Shown here: piece after piece, positions 13,633-22,998 of the stretch
How positions within the stretch are numbered: the stretch's first letter is position 1
Layout: every line of letters starts with the position of its first letter
IMG/VR virus record: IMGVR_UViG_3300017613_002894
Location: 1-23,000 of that record
DNA from: a virus
DNA: 23,000 nucleotides
Reading direction: 5' to 3' (one strand)
The notes under the pieces: model-generated
Databases searched by the model: none
What the model saw: the letters and a program-made list of their open reading frames with translations, nothing else
Told to the model about the DNA's origin: nothing
Program-made: the position numbers and the translations under genes

Positions 13633-14598
13633 ATGTCATTATTCCAACTTGCAGAGCATGTACAGATTACTAATAATCTGAAATTCCCTCATAAGGGTCG
13701 AGTAGTTAAGACTGACAAAGATGAGGACAAGAAACTCGGTCGCATTAAATGTGTCGTGAAAGGCATGTTCGAGGATGAGGCCGAGGATAAGAAGCGCCTC
13801 CCCTGGGTATTTCCTCAGAACCCCTACGGGCTCGGTGGATCTGCAACTACGTCGGGGTTTTCGGTTCCGGAACTCGACTCCGAGGTAACTGTAATATTCC
13901 CATTCGAAGATATATATCATCCTTATTATACTGGCTACTGGCAATCGGAACTAACTCATCAGCACTCTTTATTTGATGAAGATTATCCTCACTCTTATGG
14001 GTGGATAGATTCAGTCATCCATTGGCTCAAGGTCAATAAGCGACTCGGGGACGCAGACGAGCAATCCTACATCGAGTTCTTTCGTAATTACCTCGGGGAT
14101 CTCCTACGCTTAGATGAAGAAGGTAACCTCTGGATCAACATTCCTAAATCTGTGTACATTAAAGTCGGTGAGGATATTCGAACCGAGACAATTCGCGACC
14201 AGATACACAAGATCACCGGGGATCACATTGTGAAAATAGAGAAGGGTGATTTCCTGGAAGTTACCGAGAATCAGACTAAATTGATCGGCGGGAACATGAC
14301 CTCCCGCGTTACTGGAGCTCAGGAATGGCTCATAGGCACAACCCACGGAATCATAGCCGGGAGCGCGATATCCCATCAAGCGCCGCAAATTGACCATAAC
14401 TCAGGTATCATTTTCGGGAAAGCTGAATCAGATGGAGCGGATCACGATGCTGAATTGACGGATGAGCTTGCAGAACTTCAAGCTAAGATGGACGAGATGC
14501 AAGCCAAGATAGACGAGCTGACCGCTATGGCGGATGAAATCAAATCTAAGGCAGACGAGAATAGACCCGATGTAGCCCTGCCCGACAATATAGAGTAG
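13633..14598 (+). CDS. Baseplate spike protein (gp5/gpV-like, OB-fold, no lysozyme)
   Basis: The 321-residue product has an OB-fold near 15-105 (H-K-G-R-V-V-K-T...L-G-R-I-K-C-V-V-K, then L-P-W-V-F-P and F-S-V-P-E-L-D-S-E-V-T-V-I-F-P-F). Repetitive beta strands of the spike shaft follow near 155-260 (G-D-H-I-V-K-I-E-K-G-D-F-L-E-V-T). The shaft ends with Q-A-P-Q-I-D-H-N-S-G, the class-typical A-P-x-I-D/H-x-N. No lysozyme domain is present, unlike T4 gp5. After the usual end, residues 275-310 form a Met/Ala/Glu/Lys coiled coil. The protein would sit at the centre of the baseplate and pierce the host envelope. It lies one base after the hub gene and eight bases before the first propeller gene. 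Confidence 0.82.
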   Translation: MSLFQLAEHVQITNNLKFPHKGRVVKTDKDEDKKLGRIKCVVKGMFEDEAEDKKRLPWVFPQNPYGLGGSATTSGFSVPELDSEVTVIFPFEDIYHPYYTGYWQSELTHQHSLFDEDYPHSYGWIDSVIHWLKVNKRLGDADEQSYIEFFRNYLGDLLRLDEEGNLWINIPKSVYIKVGEDIRTETIRDQIHKITGDHIVKIEKGDFLEVTENQTKLIGGNMTSRVTGAQEWLIGTTHGIIAGSAISHQAPQIDHNSGIIFGKAESDGADHDAELTDELAELQAKMDEMQAKIDELTAMADEIKSKADENRPDVALPDNIE

Positions 14599-14606
14599 GT
14601 AACTTT

Positions 14607-16673
14607 ATGGCGTTAGAACACTGCCCACATATATCCTTTGCATACTGGAATACTGAAGAAGAGGAAGTCGATCTAATAGTCGAACGCATAGATACAGGAG
14701 GCATTCATCATGTTGGAGTTCGACCAGATGGAACTGTAATTTGCGCTGGCTCCAGTAATTATGGTCAATGTGACACTCTTGATTGGACAGGAATCACCGA
14801 CGTTAAAGCGGCGGGTTCGACTACATATGGTTTGAAGGCCGACGGTACCGTGGTAGCGGTGGGGAACAGTGGATCTGGTCAGCTAAATGTCGGCTCCTGG
14901 ACGGGTATAACTCAAGTTGCACCTGGGGGAGTTCACGTTGTTGGTTTGAAACCTGATGGGACCCTTGAATTTGTAGGCTCAAACGATGATAATCAGTTAA
15001 ATGGGTTAGGCGGCTGGATAAATAAAGTTTTTCTCGCCGCGGGATATTACCATACAATCGGAGTAAACGCTGATGGGACCCTTGAAACCGCAGGAACTAA
15101 TTATAACGGTGTCTTAAGTGTCGGTGCCTGGACGGATATAAAAGAAGTTGATACTTTATACTATCACACTATAGGGTTAAAGAATGATGGAACCTGTGTG
15201 GGAGCCGGTTCCAATCCTGATGGTCGGACCGACGTAGGAACTTGGACGGATATCACTAAAGTTGTAGTTGGTCAGAAACATTCTGTAGGATTAAAGAGTG
15301 ATGGCACTGTAGTTGCTACTGGCGATAATAGTGAGGGACAATGTGATGTTGGAACCTGGACGGATGTAGTAGCAATTTCTGCTGGTGGCTATAACACCGC
15401 TGCGATAACATCTGATGGAACCTGTTTAGCAGTTGGGGATAATACGTATGGTTTGAATAACATTACTCCGGATAGGACTTGGGTCAACGTCACTCAAATA
15501 CATGCATCCAATCGTTGGACAACCGGGAGAAAATCTAATGGAACTGTAGTAATTACAAGTGTTTATACTGATGTCACTTGGACTGACATTGATATGGTAA
15601 AAGCGGGATTAAATCATATCATTGCTCTTGAGGATGATGGGACCGTAACAGGCATAGGATCTAATGCCGATGGACAGTTGGATATCGTCGGTATGATAGA
15701 CATGATTGATATCGACGCCAACCAGTCGAACTCAGTAGGAGTTAAGTCGGATGGTACCGCTATTGCTGTTGGGGATAATCCGCATGGTCAGAACTGGGTT
15801 TCAGCGTGGGATGATATTAGATATATTAGATCCTCAGGGCGACACACCGTTGGTTTAAAGAATGACGGTACAGTAGTGGCGGTGGGTAGAAATGATGAAG
15901 GCCAACTCAATGTAGCAACTTGGACTGACATCATTGAAATTGCTGCCTCTTGGGAACATACTGTAGGTCTGAAATCTGATGGGACCATAGTAACCGCTGG
16001 ATCAGATTCTAATGGCGCAGATGCTTGGACCGGCGTTTCTCAGATTGCTGCAGGATCTACTGTCATAGCTGCAATCAAACCGGACGGTACCGCCCTGAGT
16101 AATAATATACTTTATGATGTTTCAGGTTGGAGTGACTTAATAGCAATTGCGGCTGGAGACGATTGGATCGTAGGTCTTAGGGATGACAATACTTGTATCG
16201 CTGTTGGGGATAATAGTCATGGTCAATCAAATATCGGCCCATGGGTTTTATATATTGATATTGATCCCCTCGAATATGTACTCCACCAAGTAGAATGCAT
16301 CGAAAGTTATTGCCGTTTATGGAATACAGTAGACCAAGAGTGCTCCATAAAAGTTGGAGAACAAATTCAAAAGCATATACATAACGAACATAACCATCAA
16401 CTCGAGCACGCCTGTGAGGACGGTTATGCCACTGATTGTGGTTTGCCAGCCGGCTCAGGGTTGTCTGGAGTAGTGCCAAAAGCAAATGCCCTTGTAGCTG
16501 AATTTGTAGGAAATGAAGATTTAGACGATAACGGGTTGGTTTACGGGAAGGACTTTAAGATTGATCCAACTGATTCAGATATGCCTCCAATGCTCGAACC
16601 CGTTGATACTCACCCAGGCAATACTGCCACAGTCACAATGACCTGGCAGGAATATCTTGATTCTTTAATATAA
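14607..16673 (+). CDS. RCC1/BLIP-II-like double propeller protein A, putative tail adhesin
   Basis: The 688-residue product starts with a short tag (C6-P-H-I-S). Fourteen repeats of about 37-39 residues follow (33-560) with consensus V-G-L-K-x-D-G-T-V-V-A-x-G-x-N-x-x-G-Q-L, then W-T-D-I-x-x-I-A-A-G. RCC1 and BLIP-II propellers have seven blades, so 14 repeats fit two propellers in one chain. BLIP-II blades have similar short length. Next is a Cys/His module (C564, C569, C579, H590, H592, H595, H597, H601, C603), then C611, a helix and an EF-hand-like loop (D638, D640, N642, G643, V645, D649). The end is T-V-T-M-T-W-x-x-Y-L. It follows the spike gene and heads a set of three relatives. Such propellers bind proteins or sugars; a baseplate-peripheral or fibre role is inferred. 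Confidence 0.85.
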   Translation: MALEHCPHISFAYWNTEEEEVDLIVERIDTGGIHHVGVRPDGTVICAGSSNYGQCDTLDWTGITDVKAAGSTTYGLKADGTVVAVGNSGSGQLNVGSWTGITQVAPGGVHVVGLKPDGTLEFVGSNDDNQLNGLGGWINKVFLAAGYYHTIGVNADGTLETAGTNYNGVLSVGAWTDIKEVDTLYYHTIGLKNDGTCVGAGSNPDGRTDVGTWTDITKVVVGQKHSVGLKSDGTVVATGDNSEGQCDVGTWTDVVAISAGGYNTAAITSDGTCLAVGDNTYGLNNITPDRTWVNVTQIHASNRWTTGRKSNGTVVITSVYTDVTWTDIDMVKAGLNHIIALEDDGTVTGIGSNADGQLDIVGMIDMIDIDANQSNSVGVKSDGTAIAVGDNPHGQNWVSAWDDIRYIRSSGRHTVGLKNDGTVVAVGRNDEGQLNVATWTDIIEIAASWEHTVGLKSDGTIVTAGSDSNGADAWTGVSQIAAGSTVIAAIKPDGTALSNNILYDVSGWSDLIAIAAGDDWIVGLRDDNTCIAVGDNSHGQSNIGPWVLYIDIDPLEYVLHQVECIESYCRLWNTVDQECSIKVGEQIQKHIHNEHNHQLEHACEDGYATDCGLPAGSGLSGVVPKANALVAEFVGNEDLDDNGLVYGKDFKIDPTDSDMPPMLEPVDTHPGNTATVTMTWQEYLDSLI
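14703..16280 (+). repeat. 14-blade RCC1-type repeat array in protein A
   Basis: Fourteen consecutive in-frame coding repeats of about 110-120 bases, each centred on GATGGNAC (Asp-Gly-Thr) and a TGGAC (Trp-Thr) segment. Short exact copies such as GATGGGACCCTTGAA occur at both 14954 and 15074, which suggests some repeats were copied recently. Confidence 0.75.
16296..16673 (+). other. Shared C-terminal Cys/His plus EF-hand-like module (protein A copy)
   Basis: This stretch encodes the 125-residue C-terminal module shared with protein B (split, 17564-17690 and 18569-18796) and protein C (22486-22857). All three copies obey C-x4-C-R-L-W-x6-C-x10-H-x-H-x2-H-x-H-x3-H-x-C. The distal half has C-G, a helix, D-x-D-x-[DN]-G-x-[VI]-x-x-x-[DT], then I-D-P-T-D and P-x-M-L before the T/W-rich end. 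Such exact spacing suggests metal coordination. Which metal, and whether the module also holds subunits together, cannot be told from sequence. Confidence 0.7.
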
Positions 16674-16675
16674 TT

Positions 16676-18799
16676 ATGACTACTATACCAGCATGCCCAT
16701 TCATAACATTTAAGCATATTCCCACTACAACTCCATTTACCACTCCCATGGTGGATGTCGGAGATGCCTCGTCCTTCGGGTTAGTAAATGATGGCACAGT
16801 TGTAGCCACAGGCTACAATGGTTATGGTCAAATTGATGTGGACGCTTGGTCTAACATCATTCAAATATCAAGTGGCCACTATACCACTGTTGGAGTATTA
16901 CTGGACGGTACCTGCGTCTCAACAGGATGGAATTCTGTTGGACAAGCAAATGTTACTGGCTGGACGGATGTCAAAATGGTTGCAACTTGGACCGTAGCTA
17001 CTATAGCTCTTCATAATGATGGAACTTTATCTGCTGTTGGTCAAAATTCATGGGGCTCTTTAAATATTGGAGGATGGACGGGCATCGATCAAATCGTTGG
17101 CGCTTCTTCTCATTCCATTGGATTGAAGGCTGATGGAACCTTAATGTGGACTGGGTATAATGATAAGGGCCAATTAGATCTCGGTTTATGGACTGATATT
17201 ACTCAAGTTGCTACCTCGTCTAATCATACCATAGGGTTAAAAACAGATGGAACTGCCATAGCAACGGGTTGGAATATTATGGGCCAGCTTGATGTCGGAC
17301 TCTGGACAGATCTCATTCAGGTTGAAGCTGCAGATGGATACTCTTTAGGGGTAAAGAGTGATGGAACTGTATACACGGCTGGCTCCGCGCCAGTTGGAGT
17401 GTCCTCGTGGACGGATATAGTCATGGTAGCAGGCCATGAGCATGAAGCAATTGGATATAAATCGGATGGCTCCGTTGTAGGCGCCGGACTAAACAATGAA
17501 GGTCAAATCAATGTCACTGCTTGGGATTTGATACCGGGAGGGGAACAGATCGTATATATCCCCTGCATGATAGATGATTGTCGACTCTGGGACAACCCAA
17601 AGGAAGAGTGCGTTTACGTAGTCAGGAATCAAGAAAAGAAACACGATCACAGAAATCATGAGCACCAATTTGTACACGAGTGTGGGGATCAATACGGGTA
17701 TCCACATCAGAATAGACGACAAATCCATTCCATAGATGATGGAGTTGCTGGCGATGCCTTTATAGTTACTGATATGGATTTTGCTGCGAGTGTGATTGGA
17801 ACTTATAATTTGTCAGAGGTTCTCACTCAGATTGCCACGTGGGAAAATGTAATTCAGGTCGCAATCGGAGAGAATGGAGCTTGCGGGGTTGACACTTCAA
17901 AGGATTTATTATGGGCACCAAAAACGGCATACACAACTAACACTTCAGATTTTGATGAATTGTTGAGGGTTATTCCTTGTGTAGATGGGCTGTTGGGATT
18001 AAAAGCGGATGGGACTTTAGTTTATTCTGGAGTTGGCGCGGTAAATGAATTATTTACCTATGATACATGGGATCAAATCCGCGAAATTGCAGCAGGAGCC
18101 TTACATATAGTTGCCCTGGACCAATGGGGGAATGTCCAAGCGGAAGGGCTTAACACTAACGGTCAATTAAATGTGTCAGAGTGGACAGATGTCAGAGATA
18201 TTTACGCCCACGGAAATGTTACCCTGGCAACCACCTATAACGATATGGTTCTTGCTACAGGGCTGGATAATTCCGGCTCCGTAACGACACCTCCAACATG
18301 GACGAATATAAAAGCTCTATATGTACACACGGATTATACTGTAGGAATACATAACGATGGGACTGTCTCATTCGCTGGCGACGGTGGATTATATAATATA
18401 GATCAAGTTACCTCAGAAACGGGTGTCGATGAAATTATTGGAATAGATGACACTTTGGTTATTTGGTTTACGGATGGATCTATTAAAGTCATAGGAGACC
18501 CTCAATTCTCAGACACTCTATTTGAGAATGTCGTAGCTCCAGAACTTCCCTGGACAACCGATGAAACCTGCGGATTAGACGCAGGTGTCACAGGTTTGAA
18601 TATTCCAATTGCATCTGTCCTCCTGGCCGAGTTTATGGGTAATGAGGATTTAGATGATGATGGCGAGATATACGGCAAGACTTTTAAAATAGATCCTACC
18701 GACGACAACCGACCTCTCATGCTCAAAGAAATTGAAGACCATCCAAAATTAACAGCTACGGTCACCATGACGTGGGCTGATTATCTCGCATCACTATAG
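16676..18799 (+). CDS. RCC1/BLIP-II-like double propeller protein B, modules interleaved
   Basis: This 707-residue relative of protein A begins with C7-P-F-I-T and seven clear RCC1/BLIP-II-type blades (about 31-290). The Cys/His module follows with the same spacing as in A (C297, C302, R303-L-W305, C312, H323, H325, H328, H330, H334, C336). Then comes a second, divergent set of about seven blades (358-625), and only afterwards the terminal module: C632-G-L, a helix and an EF-hand-like loop (D658, D660, D662, I665). The last position of the loop is T669 instead of an acidic residue, so calcium binding may be weaker. The end is T-V-T-M-T-W-A-D-Y-L. Unlike A and C, the second propeller lies between the two C-terminal modules. 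It begins two bases after gene A. Confidence 0.85.
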   Translation: MTTIPACPFITFKHIPTTTPFTTPMVDVGDASSFGLVNDGTVVATGYNGYGQIDVDAWSNIIQISSGHYTTVGVLLDGTCVSTGWNSVGQANVTGWTDVKMVATWTVATIALHNDGTLSAVGQNSWGSLNIGGWTGIDQIVGASSHSIGLKADGTLMWTGYNDKGQLDLGLWTDITQVATSSNHTIGLKTDGTAIATGWNIMGQLDVGLWTDLIQVEAADGYSLGVKSDGTVYTAGSAPVGVSSWTDIVMVAGHEHEAIGYKSDGSVVGAGLNNEGQINVTAWDLIPGGEQIVYIPCMIDDCRLWDNPKEECVYVVRNQEKKHDHRNHEHQFVHECGDQYGYPHQNRRQIHSIDDGVAGDAFIVTDMDFAASVIGTYNLSEVLTQIATWENVIQVAIGENGACGVDTSKDLLWAPKTAYTTNTSDFDELLRVIPCVDGLLGLKADGTLVYSGVGAVNELFTYDTWDQIREIAAGALHIVALDQWGNVQAEGLNTNGQLNVSEWTDVRDIYAHGNVTLATTYNDMVLATGLDNSGSVTTPPTWTNIKALYVHTDYTVGIHNDGTVSFAGDGGLYNIDQVTSETGVDEIIGIDDTLVIWFTDGSIKVIGDPQFSDTLFENVVAPELPWTTDETCGLDAGVTGLNIPIASVLLAEFMGNEDLDDDGEIYGKTFKIDPTDDNRPLMLKEIEDHPKLTATVTMTWADYLASL
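16766..17545 (+). repeat. First propeller repeats of protein B (7 blades)
   Basis: Seven in-frame repeats with the Asp-Gly-Thr and Trp-Thr-Asp landmarks. They are closer to the blades of protein A than to the second, degenerate set in the same gene (about 17747-18550), where Asp-Gly-Thr is kept in only some blades. Confidence 0.7.
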
Positions 18800-18807
18800 G
18801 ATAAAAT

Positions 18808-21800
18808 ATGGGTGAATGGATATCAATATTTGGTCCAGATAATTGGGAAGCTCATGGGGCCTCAAACTTTCCTACATGGGATGGTTCGGGGTATCTTGTT
18901 TCCAATTTTGTAGTATACGAGATGCAACTTAAAGGTTCTTTACACGTAGGTCAGAGATTCGATAAAATTAGAGTTACCTATGTCGGTACTACAAATCTCG
19001 TTTACCTCCGAATTGAAAACATTGGTGATACTCGATTTGCAAGTCTAACCAATCAACCCTCTGGGGGCGATCAAGGATTTATGAATTCCTTGTCTTCTTT
19101 AGGGGATATGCATCATATATCGTTTTGGCCCAGTGGAAGCGGGACTATAACGAATATAGAATTTTGGATCGATGATAATTCTGAAGTCATAGCCCACGTA
19201 GATCAGACTGAAATAGCACCCTGGCCCGAAAACGGAACCTTTCGTATAAAATATAGGAGTTTGTTCGCTCCGTACGAGGGATATGTGAGAATTAGAATCC
19301 CAGCCTTCATCGGAGGCGGTCTCTCATGGGATATAGCTAATATGTGGTTCGGTCAAGCTCATTCCAATACTATGACTGAATTTGATTTTAAGACAGGGGC
19401 TTTCGAACAAATTTACTGGAATAATGGGGATATCAGTGTTCAGATTGATCAGGATAGAAACGAGTATCTATACTCGGATCCAATTTGGCTCGAACTTGAT
19501 CCCGATGATGCAATAATTTTCTCATACTACTCTATAAATCTTGTCGATCAGTGGAGATATCTTACGGATGGTGGAGTTTACGTAAATACCTCTTGGAGAG
19601 GAGGGGGCGACCATGCCAACGATCAATGGTGGACAGAATGGGGTCCAGGTAAATGTTTTGGGATCTCCTTAGTTCATGAGAATGGATTTTCAGGAAACCT
19701 TGATATATCCCCTTGCCCATCGGAAGTTACAGATCCATTTTATGTTGCAGATAATCATAGGACTTATCCCGGTCAATCATACACAATACGTACGGCATTT
19801 GACCCCTCTCAAATCAGACATTCAGTCGGAAATTTAAGAATTGGATTCAAAGGATATCAAAGTAGTCCTATTGAGATTCTTGAGGCATGGTGTGGTCAAT
19901 GCTTGGATTCCACCGATCCAGTCTTTGTAGGAGAACCTGAACAATTATTTTTTGATGGCTCCGTCTCTGCCACTAAGTTTGGAACCGATGGAATCTTATG
20001 GTCAGACTTAATTGATTTCAATATACGGAATTATCAATGGTCCTGGGATCTTGGATTCGTAGTTTCTTTTTATACGAATTTAACTATGGATTATCCCATA
20101 ATTAAGGATCCAAGGTACCGTCCTGGAATTTGGAGCTCATATGCAAAGAATCACAATAACGCAGGCCTAACAGGACCCTGGGTGTGGGGGACCGCCTATG
20201 AGGGAGCGAGACTTGGAGTGGTTTCAATTTGCTCCAATTGGTGTTACGGTGGAGAAGGCGGACTTCCTCCGGACCCGGGGTATATTCCAGATTGCTATGA
20301 CGTTGAAGCTTGTGAACTTGCTGGAGGATACTGGTATTGCGGTGCCTGTCATGAGGAACCCCAAGAAATAACAGATACTGGGACAACAGTAAATATTGGA
20401 GATAAGGATGATAATCTCAACCCCCCACTTGTTTTGGGCTGCCCCTTTATTTCAGGGAACATTGATAAATTTGAGGATGAGGGTACAGGGGGAGACACTT
20501 ATCAAGACGAACCATGGTCCGGCCGCGGTAAGGTAGTTTGTACTGATGATATCACTTCATTATTGGATCAAAAGGGCAATGTCATGTGGGCCGGCGATTT
20601 AGGTTGGCAAACAGGTAGCCCTCGTCGATGGCAACCTTTCGGTCAGCGGTCTGAGATGATAGTTTCAATAAAGGGTAACAAGGCAAACTTTGGGTATCTA
20701 ACCCGAGGTGGTGCTGTAATATGTTATGGAACTTCAACTGGTTCAGATGACGCCGCCAAATGGATTGCTCCAGAACCCGGAAGATTCGTGAGACATTTTG
20801 AATGCGGGAAGAGTCATACAGTAGTCTTATACACCGATGGGTCAGTTAAAGCCCAGGGATGGAACCAAAACAATTGTGTTTCTACCCCTCGGACGTGGAC
20901 GGATATTCAATATATCTGGGCTGGAAATGGATTTACCGCAGGAGTGGATTCCACGGGTCAAATGTACTATGCTGGCACCCCAAGTTACTCCCTTCAAACG
21001 GATATTCTGGCTTTATCAGGTCTTGGGATCGTTGGAGGCAAAGCGGGGTCAGATAATATAGTCCTAATTGGCCCTAACGGTAAAGTATTCTTTAGGGGAG
21101 CTAACAAGAGTAGCTCAACATATGAAGGAATAAATAATCATTACAATATCATAAATGTAGGTATTGGGGATACAAATGTATACCTGATTGATGAAGCTGG
21201 CAATGTATTTGGGTATGGGTCTGACTCGGATAATCAATTATCTGATATGGTATCTAACAATTGGACGAATGCTCGAGAAATTGACTGCGATGATAATGGT
21301 GCCTTTCTTTTACGAAGGGATGGTACCTTAAGTTTTTTGGGTGATTCCGGACCAATGGGCGCTTTAACGAGGCGAAATGATTTATCTCGATACACCGCCT
21401 ACGCAATGAATTCATATGCTGGAGTTCTCCACTCCCATGCAGCGGGAGACTTCTTTTCATATGACCCAGCCGGAGATATACAGGTTGCGGGTAAGACTGC
21501 AGCAACATCATACGACTTTGCAGAGTGGGCTGGCGAGGACATCTTCAGAGTATATAGTTATGTTCAAGCTGCTCATGAGGCTTGGCTTGGATTGACACGA
21601 GATGGTAAAATGATTCCGGCAGGCCCCGACAAATTAACTGCATTCTCTGGCTTGTTAGGTACAATGGATCAAGTGGATCAGATTATAGCTGGACCATATC
21701 ATATAGTTTACAAAAAGGCCGATGGTACAAATGGCGGTTTTTTGTCCCCCACATCTCCGGGGTTTACGTACAACCATCTTCAACATTCATATTTCTGGGA

Positions 21801-22860
21801 CTACACTCTTCAGTTGTCCCCAGGTTGGCTTTACACCATTGGTATTTGGAGAGAAACTGGAGCTCTGAATCAGGTCGGCCGAATTGGAGCTGATAATAAC
21901 GGTCTCCAGGATCATTTCGGGAATCTCGGGGAGATCTCAGGTCTTTTTAATCCATGGGACGAATTTGCATTTGTCCCGTTCCAGTGGGATTACTGGGGTG
22001 AAGGTCCATCCTCGGTAAACAGGCAAGGTATTATAGTTAGTGGGTATGACAAGGACTCCACGTACTTTTGGGGCTATCAAACTGGATTCATGAAGCTCCC
22101 GGTTGGTGGACCAAATTTTAAGATAGAACAAACGATGTGTGAAACTGATAACCTTTATATCATAGAGCCTGATGGGACAGGGCATGGAGAACCAGGAAAC
22201 CAATGGTATGGAGGAGTAGGGAACGATGGTAACCATCCGACCTCCCCAGGAGATTTGACAGCGGCCCGAACTGGGATAGTAGATATTAGAGGAAAGAATG
22301 CAAACCTGGCAACCCTAATTTATGAGGACGGATGGATCGAGAGAATCAATAGATACTATTCTGACCATACTCGAATTGACTCCTTTACACTTCAACCGTT
22401 CGAGGCCCCAGATTTGACCTCCCTAAGGGATCGGACTTGCAGCGTTGCTGGTATCCATACATACATCAACTTCTCTTTCCATCCATGCATCGAGAATAAA
22501 TGCCGTTTATGGGACGTGAAACAACAGGAATGCTCCATCAAGGTTCGAATGGATGAGATAAAGCATGTTCATCATCAACACTTACATCCTAAGGATCATA
22601 CATGCGCAGAGGGATTCCAAGTTGATTGCGGTGGAATAACTCAGGAAAATGTTAGCGGCGTTTTAAAAGCAGCTATTTTAGTTGCCGAGGCAGCAGGGAA
22701 CGCCGATCTTGACAATAACGGCCTAATTTACTGCAAAGACTTCATCATAGACCCCACTGATCCAGACATACCACCGATGTTGGTGGTCGAGCAAGAGAAA
22801 TCCACCTGCTTATCTGTAACCACCACTATGCTATGGGCTGACTATTTAGCCAGCTTTTAA
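18808..22860 (+). CDS. Large RCC1-like propeller adhesin C with duplicated N-terminal beta domain
   Basis: The 1350-residue product has three parts. Residues 1-540 hold two related beta domains: M-W-F-G-Q near 179 and A-W-C-G-Q near 360 are each followed by a D/V-F...Q-I-Y/L-F-F-x-G segment and a strand ending S-D-P/L-I. A Cys-rich segment follows (C475, C479, C496, C502, C511, C514). At 545 the tag C-P-F-I-S, which begins proteins A and B, appears internally and starts about 14 degenerate RCC1-type blades (to about 1215). The C-terminus repeats the Cys/His module with identical spacing (C1227, C1232, C1242, H1253, H1255, H1258, H1260, H1264, C1266) and the EF-hand-like loop (D1300, D1302, N1304, I1307, D1311). 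AGGA at 18797-18800 precedes ATG. It looks like the main adhesin of the set, inferred from size and surface-type domains. Confidence 0.82.
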   Translation: MGEWISIFGPDNWEAHGASNFPTWDGSGYLVSNFVVYEMQLKGSLHVGQRFDKIRVTYVGTTNLVYLRIENIGDTRFASLTNQPSGGDQGFMNSLSSLGDMHHISFWPSGSGTITNIEFWIDDNSEVIAHVDQTEIAPWPENGTFRIKYRSLFAPYEGYVRIRIPAFIGGGLSWDIANMWFGQAHSNTMTEFDFKTGAFEQIYWNNGDISVQIDQDRNEYLYSDPIWLELDPDDAIIFSYYSINLVDQWRYLTDGGVYVNTSWRGGGDHANDQWWTEWGPGKCFGISLVHENGFSGNLDISPCPSEVTDPFYVADNHRTYPGQSYTIRTAFDPSQIRHSVGNLRIGFKGYQSSPIEILEAWCGQCLDSTDPVFVGEPEQLFFDGSVSATKFGTDGILWSDLIDFNIRNYQWSWDLGFVVSFYTNLTMDYPIIKDPRYRPGIWSSYAKNHNNAGLTGPWVWGTAYEGARLGVVSICSNWCYGGEGGLPPDPGYIPDCYDVEACELAGGYWYCGACHEEPQEITDTGTTVNIGDKDDNLNPPLVLGCPFISGNIDKFEDEGTGGDTYQDEPWSGRGKVVCTDDITSLLDQKGNVMWAGDLGWQTGSPRRWQPFGQRSEMIVSIKGNKANFGYLTRGGAVICYGTSTGSDDAAKWIAPEPGRFVRHFECGKSHTVVLYTDGSVKAQGWNQNNCVSTPRTWTDIQYIWAGNGFTAGVDSTGQMYYAGTPSYSLQTDILALSGLGIVGGKAGSDNIVLIGPNGKVFFRGANKSSSTYEGINNHYNIINVGIGDTNVYLIDEAGNVFGYGSDSDNQLSDMVSNNWTNAREIDCDDNGAFLLRRDGTLSFLGDSGPMGALTRRNDLSRYTAYAMNSYAGVLHSHAAGDFFSYDPAGDIQVAGKTAATSYDFAEWAGEDIFRVYSYVQAAHEAWLGLTRDGKMIPAGPDKLTAFSGLLGTMDQVDQIIAGPYHIVYKKADGTNGGFLSPTSPGFTYNHLQHSYFWDYTLQLSPGWLYTIGIWRETGALNQVGRIGADNNGLQDHFGNLGEISGLFNPWDEFAFVPFQWDYWGEGPSSVNRQGIIVSGYDKDSTYFWGYQTGFMKLPVGGPNFKIEQTMCETDNLYIIEPDGTGHGEPGNQWYGGVGNDGNHPTSPGDLTAARTGIVDIRGKNANLATLIYEDGWIERINRYYSDHTRIDSFTLQPFEAPDLTSLRDRTCSVAGIHTYINFSFHPCIENKCRLWDVKQQECSIKVRMDEIKHVHHQHLHPKDHTCAEGFQVDCGGITQENVSGVLKAAILVAEAAGNADLDNNGLIYCKDFIIDPTDPDIPPMLVVEQEKSTCLSVTTTMLWADYLASF
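20530..22450 (+). repeat. Degenerate RCC1-type repeats of protein C (about 14 blades)
   Basis: Repeats are recognised by the spacing of hydrophobic-Gly-x-D-G/x-G turns and by scattered full matches (for example Y-T-D-G-S-V-K-A-Q-G-W-N with R-T-W-T-D-I near residues 676-700). Blade borders are uncertain because several blades have long insertions, so the count of 14 is approximate. Confidence 0.55.
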
Positions 22861-22869
22861 AAGGATACT

Positions 22870-22998
22870 ATGCCTCAAACTGAAATAAAGAGGGAACCCG
22901 TTAAGAAATCAATTTCAAAGGAAAAACCCAAACGTCTGTCTCGAAAGAAGAGGTCCCCAAGGCGTCGGATAAAGAACAAAGGCGGAGGTTGCTGCTAA
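22870..22998 (+). CDS. Small Lys/Arg-rich protein ending in GGGCC, 42 aa
   Basis: A complete 42-codon gene with AAAAGGA immediately upstream (22858-22864) and ATG 22870, ten bases after the stop of protein C. The product is extremely basic: about half of residues 7-37 are Lys or Arg, with K-K-R-S-P-R-R-R-I-K. It ends in Lys-Gly-Gly-Gly-Cys-Cys. It has no hydrophobic core and is probably unstructured alone. No known family comes to mind. The tight spacing after the adhesin gene argues that it is translated with the tail genes. A nucleic-acid-binding, scaffold or partner protein is possible. Chance openness of such a short frame cannot be excluded. Confidence 0.6.
   Translation: MPQTEIKREPVKKSISKEKPKRLSRKKRSPRRRIKNKGGGCC

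Follow-up and report, generated by a model that had tools for sequence, protein, structure and literature searches.

A cysteine- and histidine-containing module shared by three proteins encoded beside a phage tail spike, with putative metal sites

Three consecutive genes downstream of a spike gene

The window analysed here is a 23-kb fragment of a virus from IMG/VR. It contains a myovirus tail block, with genes for sheath, tube, baseplate hub and wedge-like proteins, followed by a spike and then by three consecutive genes, A, B and C (Table 1). The nearest cultured relatives of the spike are jumbo myophages of Vibrio and Rhizobium. Proteins A and B matched the Pfam RCC1_2 family with 208.8 and 102.8 bits, above the curated cut-off of 22, and C scored 16.9 bits, below this cut-off. 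A, B and C probably belong to the tail tip or baseplate of a phage with a contractile tail, probably one of the jumbo class. The window stops 140 bases 3' of gene C, before any PAAR gene could appear. A strongly basic 42-aa open reading frame ending in GGGCC lies directly 3' of gene C at the fragment end (22870–22998). A SWIM zinc-finger-like protein (CxC..CxH) is encoded 5' of the tail genes (1848–2543) and in locus L058 (332–955), and a SWIM-type annotated protein also occurs near the tail genes of Vibrio phage 150E35-1.

A regular-expression search of the proteins for C-x4-C-RLW-x6-C-x10-HxHx2HxHx3HxC returned exactly three matches, one each in A, B and C. The identical Cys/His spacing that the initial annotation had described for three propeller proteins is thus exact, while its coordinates (16296–16415) cover copy A and leave copies B and C outside. 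At the DNA level, the pattern of nine Cys/His codons occurred three times in the window and never in 100 dinucleotide shuffles. The 12 motif codons showed no nonsynonymous differences in any pair of paralogues, with six (A/B), three (A/C), and nine (B/C) synonymous differences. The remaining 28 codons differed nonsynonymously at 23 (A/B), 19 (A/C), and 22 (B/C) positions, in agreement with the noted divergence of the intervening residues. As the motif codons differ only synonymously and the neighbouring codons have diverged, the motif is under strong purifying selection, and the codon comparison excludes recent duplication as the source of its sharing. A further cysteine C-terminal to the motif is common to all three proteins (A 611, B 632, and C 1274) and had been overlooked. 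The N-terminal extension of C contains a second cysteine knuckle, C-x5-C-x8-C-x2-C-H (P0003 residues 496–515; window 20293–20352).

Table 1. Positions of the spike, genes A to C and their module elements in the window
Feature	Position	Strand	Residues	Remarks
gp5/gpV-like spike	13633..14598	+		OB and gp5-trimer profiles; C-terminal coiled coil
Gene A	14607..16673	+	688 aa	CPHIS, RCC1 propeller repeats, Cys trio, His block, C-terminal domain
CPHIS, A	14622..14636	+	6-10	C6; proposed fourth Cys4-clamp ligand, from co-occurrence with the trio
Motif, A	16296..16415	+	P0001 564-603	C564, C569, C579, H590, H592, H595, H597, H601, C603
EF-hand-like loop, A	16518..16553	+		DLDDNGLVYGKD; C-terminal domain, pLDDT of domain mostly 84-94
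Gene B	16676..18799	+	707 aa	CPFIT, propeller, Cys trio and His block, second propeller-like stretch (between motif and C-terminal domain), C-terminal domain
CPFIT, B	16694..16708	+	7-11	C7; proposed fourth Cys, from co-occurrence with the trio
Motif, B	17564..17683	+	P0002 297-336
EF-hand-like loop, B	18647..18682	+		DLDDDGEIYGKT; C-terminal domain
Gene C	18808..22860	+	1350 aa	N-terminal extension, CPFIS, weak RCC1-like propeller
Gene C, 3' part	within 18808..22860	+		Cys trio, His block, C-terminal domain
CPFIS, C	20440..20454	+	545-549	C545; proposed fourth Cys, internal, just before propeller
Motif, C	22486..22605	+	P0003 1227-1266
EF-hand-like loop, C	22705..22740	+		DLDNNGLIYCKD; C-terminal domain

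A, B, C and their relatives also have a C-terminal domain in common, likewise absent from the initial annotation. It was the only confidently predicted part of the models and is ordered as a helix, an EF-hand-like loop, a strand, a short helix, and a terminal W-x-x-Y-L. The loop, D-x-D-x-[NDT]-x-x-[VI]-x-x-x-[DT], follows a helix as in EF-hand and dockerin-type calcium loops, but its position 9 is Tyr (Leu in one relative, L062) in all members. Indeed, all 16 loops failed the EF-hand signature PROSITE PS00018 at position 9, and four of them failed at one further position. The domain also differs from EF-hands in its predicted fold, with a model of helix (104–114), loop, and strand (129–131) at a pLDDT of about 90 rather than helix-loop-helix, and the loop had no Pfam EF-hand match. 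Foldseek searches against PDB and BFVD returned no match with these models, which are unreliable over the motif (pLDDT for the most part under 50 across the A motif and the L062 His block; 58–78 over the L062 trio). The third module gene of L111 (2878; a 625-aa open reading frame) encodes approximately four tandem copies of the domain.

Relatives of the module and its separable elements

Module relatives were found in at least eight further phage lineages. Profiles of the motif and the C-terminal domain, run against loci around related spikes, revealed a 168-aa protein in L062 (E 1e-7 for the motif, 2e-14 for the C-terminal domain) and a 258-aa protein in L060 (C-terminal domain E 2e-23). A profile that included both picked up L081, a P2/Mu-like phage. 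A scan with the loop pattern D-x-D-x-[ND]-...-G-K-D-F, from which relatives with a profile E of 1e-6 or better were kept, gave among the matches listed L090, L104, L111/L116 (three genes), L124, and L168/L202; these are biased for the loop, not for Cys or His. Small 'KKLDKDKDGKITGKDF' proteins matching the loop pattern were dropped, as they look like a different EF-type family. The element counts below cover 13 distinct modules. A tree of the C-terminal domains was mostly without resolved branching.

Other searches were unproductive. Exact-spacing DNA scans of IMG/VR (41 and 5 stretches) gave chance matches, the in-frame translations that were read being short or unrelated open reading frames; four of the five stretches from the second scan (L050 and L052–L054) lacked an in-frame CRLW form. 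The motif or the C-terminal domain alone as query found nothing in IMG/VR, cultured phages or GTDB genomes, and tblastn of L081 against phages gave best E values of only 0.1 and 7. The module had no significant match in Pfam, PHROG, NCBIfam or PDB sequences. The family appears undescribed in the libraries and literature searched.

Six modules had the trio C-x4-C-xxW-x6-C (A, B, C, L062, L090, and L124), and a seventh, L060, had it with a changed distance to the third Cys. Trio-bearing modules also contain an N-terminal CP[HFLK] cysteine, which the initial annotation had missed. It accompanied the trio in seven of seven modules and was found in none of the six others (Fisher p 0.0006, kinship ignored). 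The CP cysteine and the trio account for all cysteines in the L062, L124, and L060 proteins, exactly four in each. The part between them is variable, comprising approximately 20 residues in L124, approximately 160 in L060, and the propeller in A, B, and C. Since the trio co-occurs with the CP cysteine, the four are the only cysteines of three relatives, and a variable domain lies between them, they likely form a Cys4 clamp, for which the metal would probably be zinc. Exactly four cysteines could also pair up as disulfides with no metal at all. We consider this unlikely, as phage tail assembly takes place in reducing cytoplasm and the tight spacing of the trio resembles a knuckle.

The histidine element HxHx2HxH was present in nine of the 13 modules (A, B, C, L062, L090, L081, and three L111 genes), with a shuffle frequency of at most 5e-4 in each of the six relative modules tested. 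Its counterpart in L168 reads HxDxxHxD. L060, L124, and L104 lack it, so the core domain can do its work, whatever that may be, without the His block. Such losses would suit a plain structural or attachment domain, spread among fibre genes by domain swapping as is common for shared domains of this kind, with Cys and His as metal-free packing residues. This is improbable given that the Cys/His codons are free of amino acid changes while their neighbours diverge, and that the His spacing is exact in independent contexts.

A further histidine of the His block (H12) is retained in six modules (A, B, C, L062, L090, and L111 gene 1) and is missing in L081. The final cysteine is found in A, B, C, and L090, and Ala takes its place in L062 and L111 gene 1. 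Upstream of the block, L081 showed a canonical heptad run (shuffle p 0.0002) and L111 gene 3 a less clear one (p 0.02). In L111 gene 1 the signal was on the borderline, and in L090, L168, L111 gene 2, and A it did not reach significance. L111 gene 1 had a collagen-like repeat upstream of the block (Pfam E 1.9e-4). The heptads of L081 and L111 gene 3 and the collagen-like repeat of L111 gene 1 make it plausible that the His element forms an inter-chain metal site of the gp37/gpV kind. The proposal that the motif binds metal between subunits thus gains ground for the His block only, through L081 and L111 gene 1. The block might instead be an intra-chain zinc site (e.g. three His and the final Cys), that is, a monomeric zinc knuckle without a trimer site. 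Retention of the final Cys in A, B, C, and L090, and the lack of a heptad signal in A and L090, agree with this arrangement. We consider it less likely: the final Cys is Ala in two modules, L081 without H12 is left with HxHx2HxH alone, and the collagen-like and coiled-coil stretches imply oligomers.

Trio and His block were lost and moved independently, and are two separable elements. L124, and L060 with its altered spacing, have the trio without the His block. Conversely, two phages (L081 and L111, in all three genes) have the His block without the trio. L090 retains both C-x4-C-xxW-x6-C and HxHx2HxHx3HxC exactly, approximately 84 residues apart. This independence is evidence against one joint metal centre per chain built from all nine Cys/His ligands, a reading that follows from the initial annotation, which had suggested a metal site from two HxH pairs and four Cys. 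The spacing of the nine is indeed fixed in A, B, and C and nearly fixed in L062, where every Cys/His position but the last Cys is kept. However, with halves lost separately and parted in L090, a joint centre is quite improbable. Homologues lacking several of the Cys and His residues, which had been named as counter-evidence, therefore exist; they count against the joint site and not against two separate ones. A metal role is likely, and there are most likely two sites rather than one.

Gene neighbourhood of the module

In all eight relative lineages examined, a PAAR or PAAR-like gene adjoined the module gene or lay within a few kb. The module gene stood between spike and PAAR in L060, L062, L081, L168, and L090, sharing this slot with one further gene in L060 and L062. 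L124 and L104 had the order spike, PAAR, module, and in L111 a PAAR-like gene was located approximately 2.5 kb downstream. PAAR identity was assigned by Pfam above the cut-off in L062, L124, L104, and L168, just under it in L081, and weakly in L090; for L060 and L111 it was assigned by similarity to another PAAR protein. Like PAAR spike-tip proteins (PF05488, T4 gp5.4), which are their gene neighbours in related loci, module proteins may be small Cys/His proteins of the tail tip. However, Pfam PAAR_motif matched none of 12 module sequences and the module co-exists with a PAAR gene in relatives, making it another protein.

The minimal proteins of L081 and L168 (104–113 aa) contain little beyond a helical stretch, the His element (in its variant form in L168), and the C-terminal domain. 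Because the shortest relatives are reduced to these parts and are encoded beside spike and PAAR genes, the constant function of the module is likely structural, at the centre of the spike and baseplate.

Related loci differed in several other respects. Proteins in the spike–PAAR slot of Vibrio phages GR11A and 150E35-1, and the protein after the spike in GR7B, bore no resemblance to the module on inspection, and the module profile matched nothing in these three whole genomes. A coiled-coil C-terminal end was found in the spikes of the window, L060 (10004–11035), and L062 (10004–10810) and was absent from most other related spikes; these three are the jumbo-type phages with the module, and may simply be close kin. 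In other related spikes the C-terminal end is HVHIHG or HTH, resembling the metal tip of P2 gpV itself (L055 13998–14798, L071 9941–10645, L073, and L075). In L071, L073, and L075, a gp25-like gene comes next after the spike, with no PAAR or module gene between. In L111/L116 and L223 (5030–14349), a dTDP-sugar dehydratase-like gene is interspersed among the three module genes, of which one is collagen-like. Just upstream, on the opposite strand, are a dTDP-sugar epimerase-like gene and a repeat-protein array (LCKLAI..YIKxQTPE).

A three-part module and its possible role at the tail tip

Our data suggest that A, B, and C belong to the tail tip or baseplate and that in each a three-part module carries a variable domain, a reading to which we give a probability of roughly one half. 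In the first part, the CP[HF] cysteine and the C-x4-C-xxW-x6-C trio would form a Cys4 clamp, most likely binding Zn2+. It would flank the inserted propeller at the point where a closed propeller brings its two ends together, closing the base of the inserted domain. The second part, HxHx2HxH(x3HxC), would most likely be an Fe or Zn site between the chains of a trimer, preceded in some relatives by a coiled coil or collagen-like stretch. The third part is the C-terminal domain, with its EF-hand-like, possibly Ca2+-binding loop and W-x-x-Y-L end. The module would probably fasten A, B, and C at the spike/baseplate centre, leaving the propellers as an exchangeable, outward-facing, and possibly host-contacting part.

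The principle of metal-pinned tail tips is already known. In T4 gp37, P2 gpV, and pyocin fibres, HxH motifs from three chains hold iron octahedrally (PMC6116203), and marine phage fibres with several HxH motifs have been discussed as providing iron ligands (PMC11705849). The module resembles the HxH iron sites of T4 gp37, P2 gpV, the phi92 spike, and R-pyocin fibres (PMC6116203) in its HxH pairs, two each in A, B, C, and six relative modules, and in its probable association with the tip of contractile tails. A trimer is also plausible from the coiled-coil and collagen-like stretches of relatives. Unlike the known sites, the two HxH pairs are only two residues apart within the HxHx2HxHx3HxC block, the block is accompanied by a distinct, proposed Cys4 clamp and by an EF-hand-like domain, and the protein is encoded beside the spike rather than being part of it.

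Propeller proteins also have precedents, as jumbo phage phAPEC6 encodes eleven RCC1-repeat proteins (PMC7247149). A and B, and weakly C, share RCC1 repeats with such jumbo-phage proteins (PHROGs 16766, 7220, and 4219). In contrast, the propeller of the module is a replaceable insert, and L062, L081, L124, L168, and others are without it.

In a more specific arrangement, A, B, and C would form one heterotrimer, in which the common His element and clamp join their three unlike propellers to one metal-pinned hub next to the needle of spike and PAAR. We consider this a long shot. Under it, the HxHx2HxH proteins encoded by the three neighbouring L111 genes might be a heterotrimer too, and phages with one module gene would form homotrimers. 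If true, the tail tip would have a built-in three-way asymmetry.

Jumbo-type and P2/Mu-like phages share an unnamed protein family, defined by the module and tied to the spike and PAAR tip of their contractile tails, for which exact candidate metal residues can be given. If the proposed model is true, a Cys4 clamp would plug in different outward-facing domains while a second, metal-histidine block joins the chains. An HxH-type, possibly iron-carrying part would then exist in a tail protein other than the spikes and fibres in which these sites have been described.
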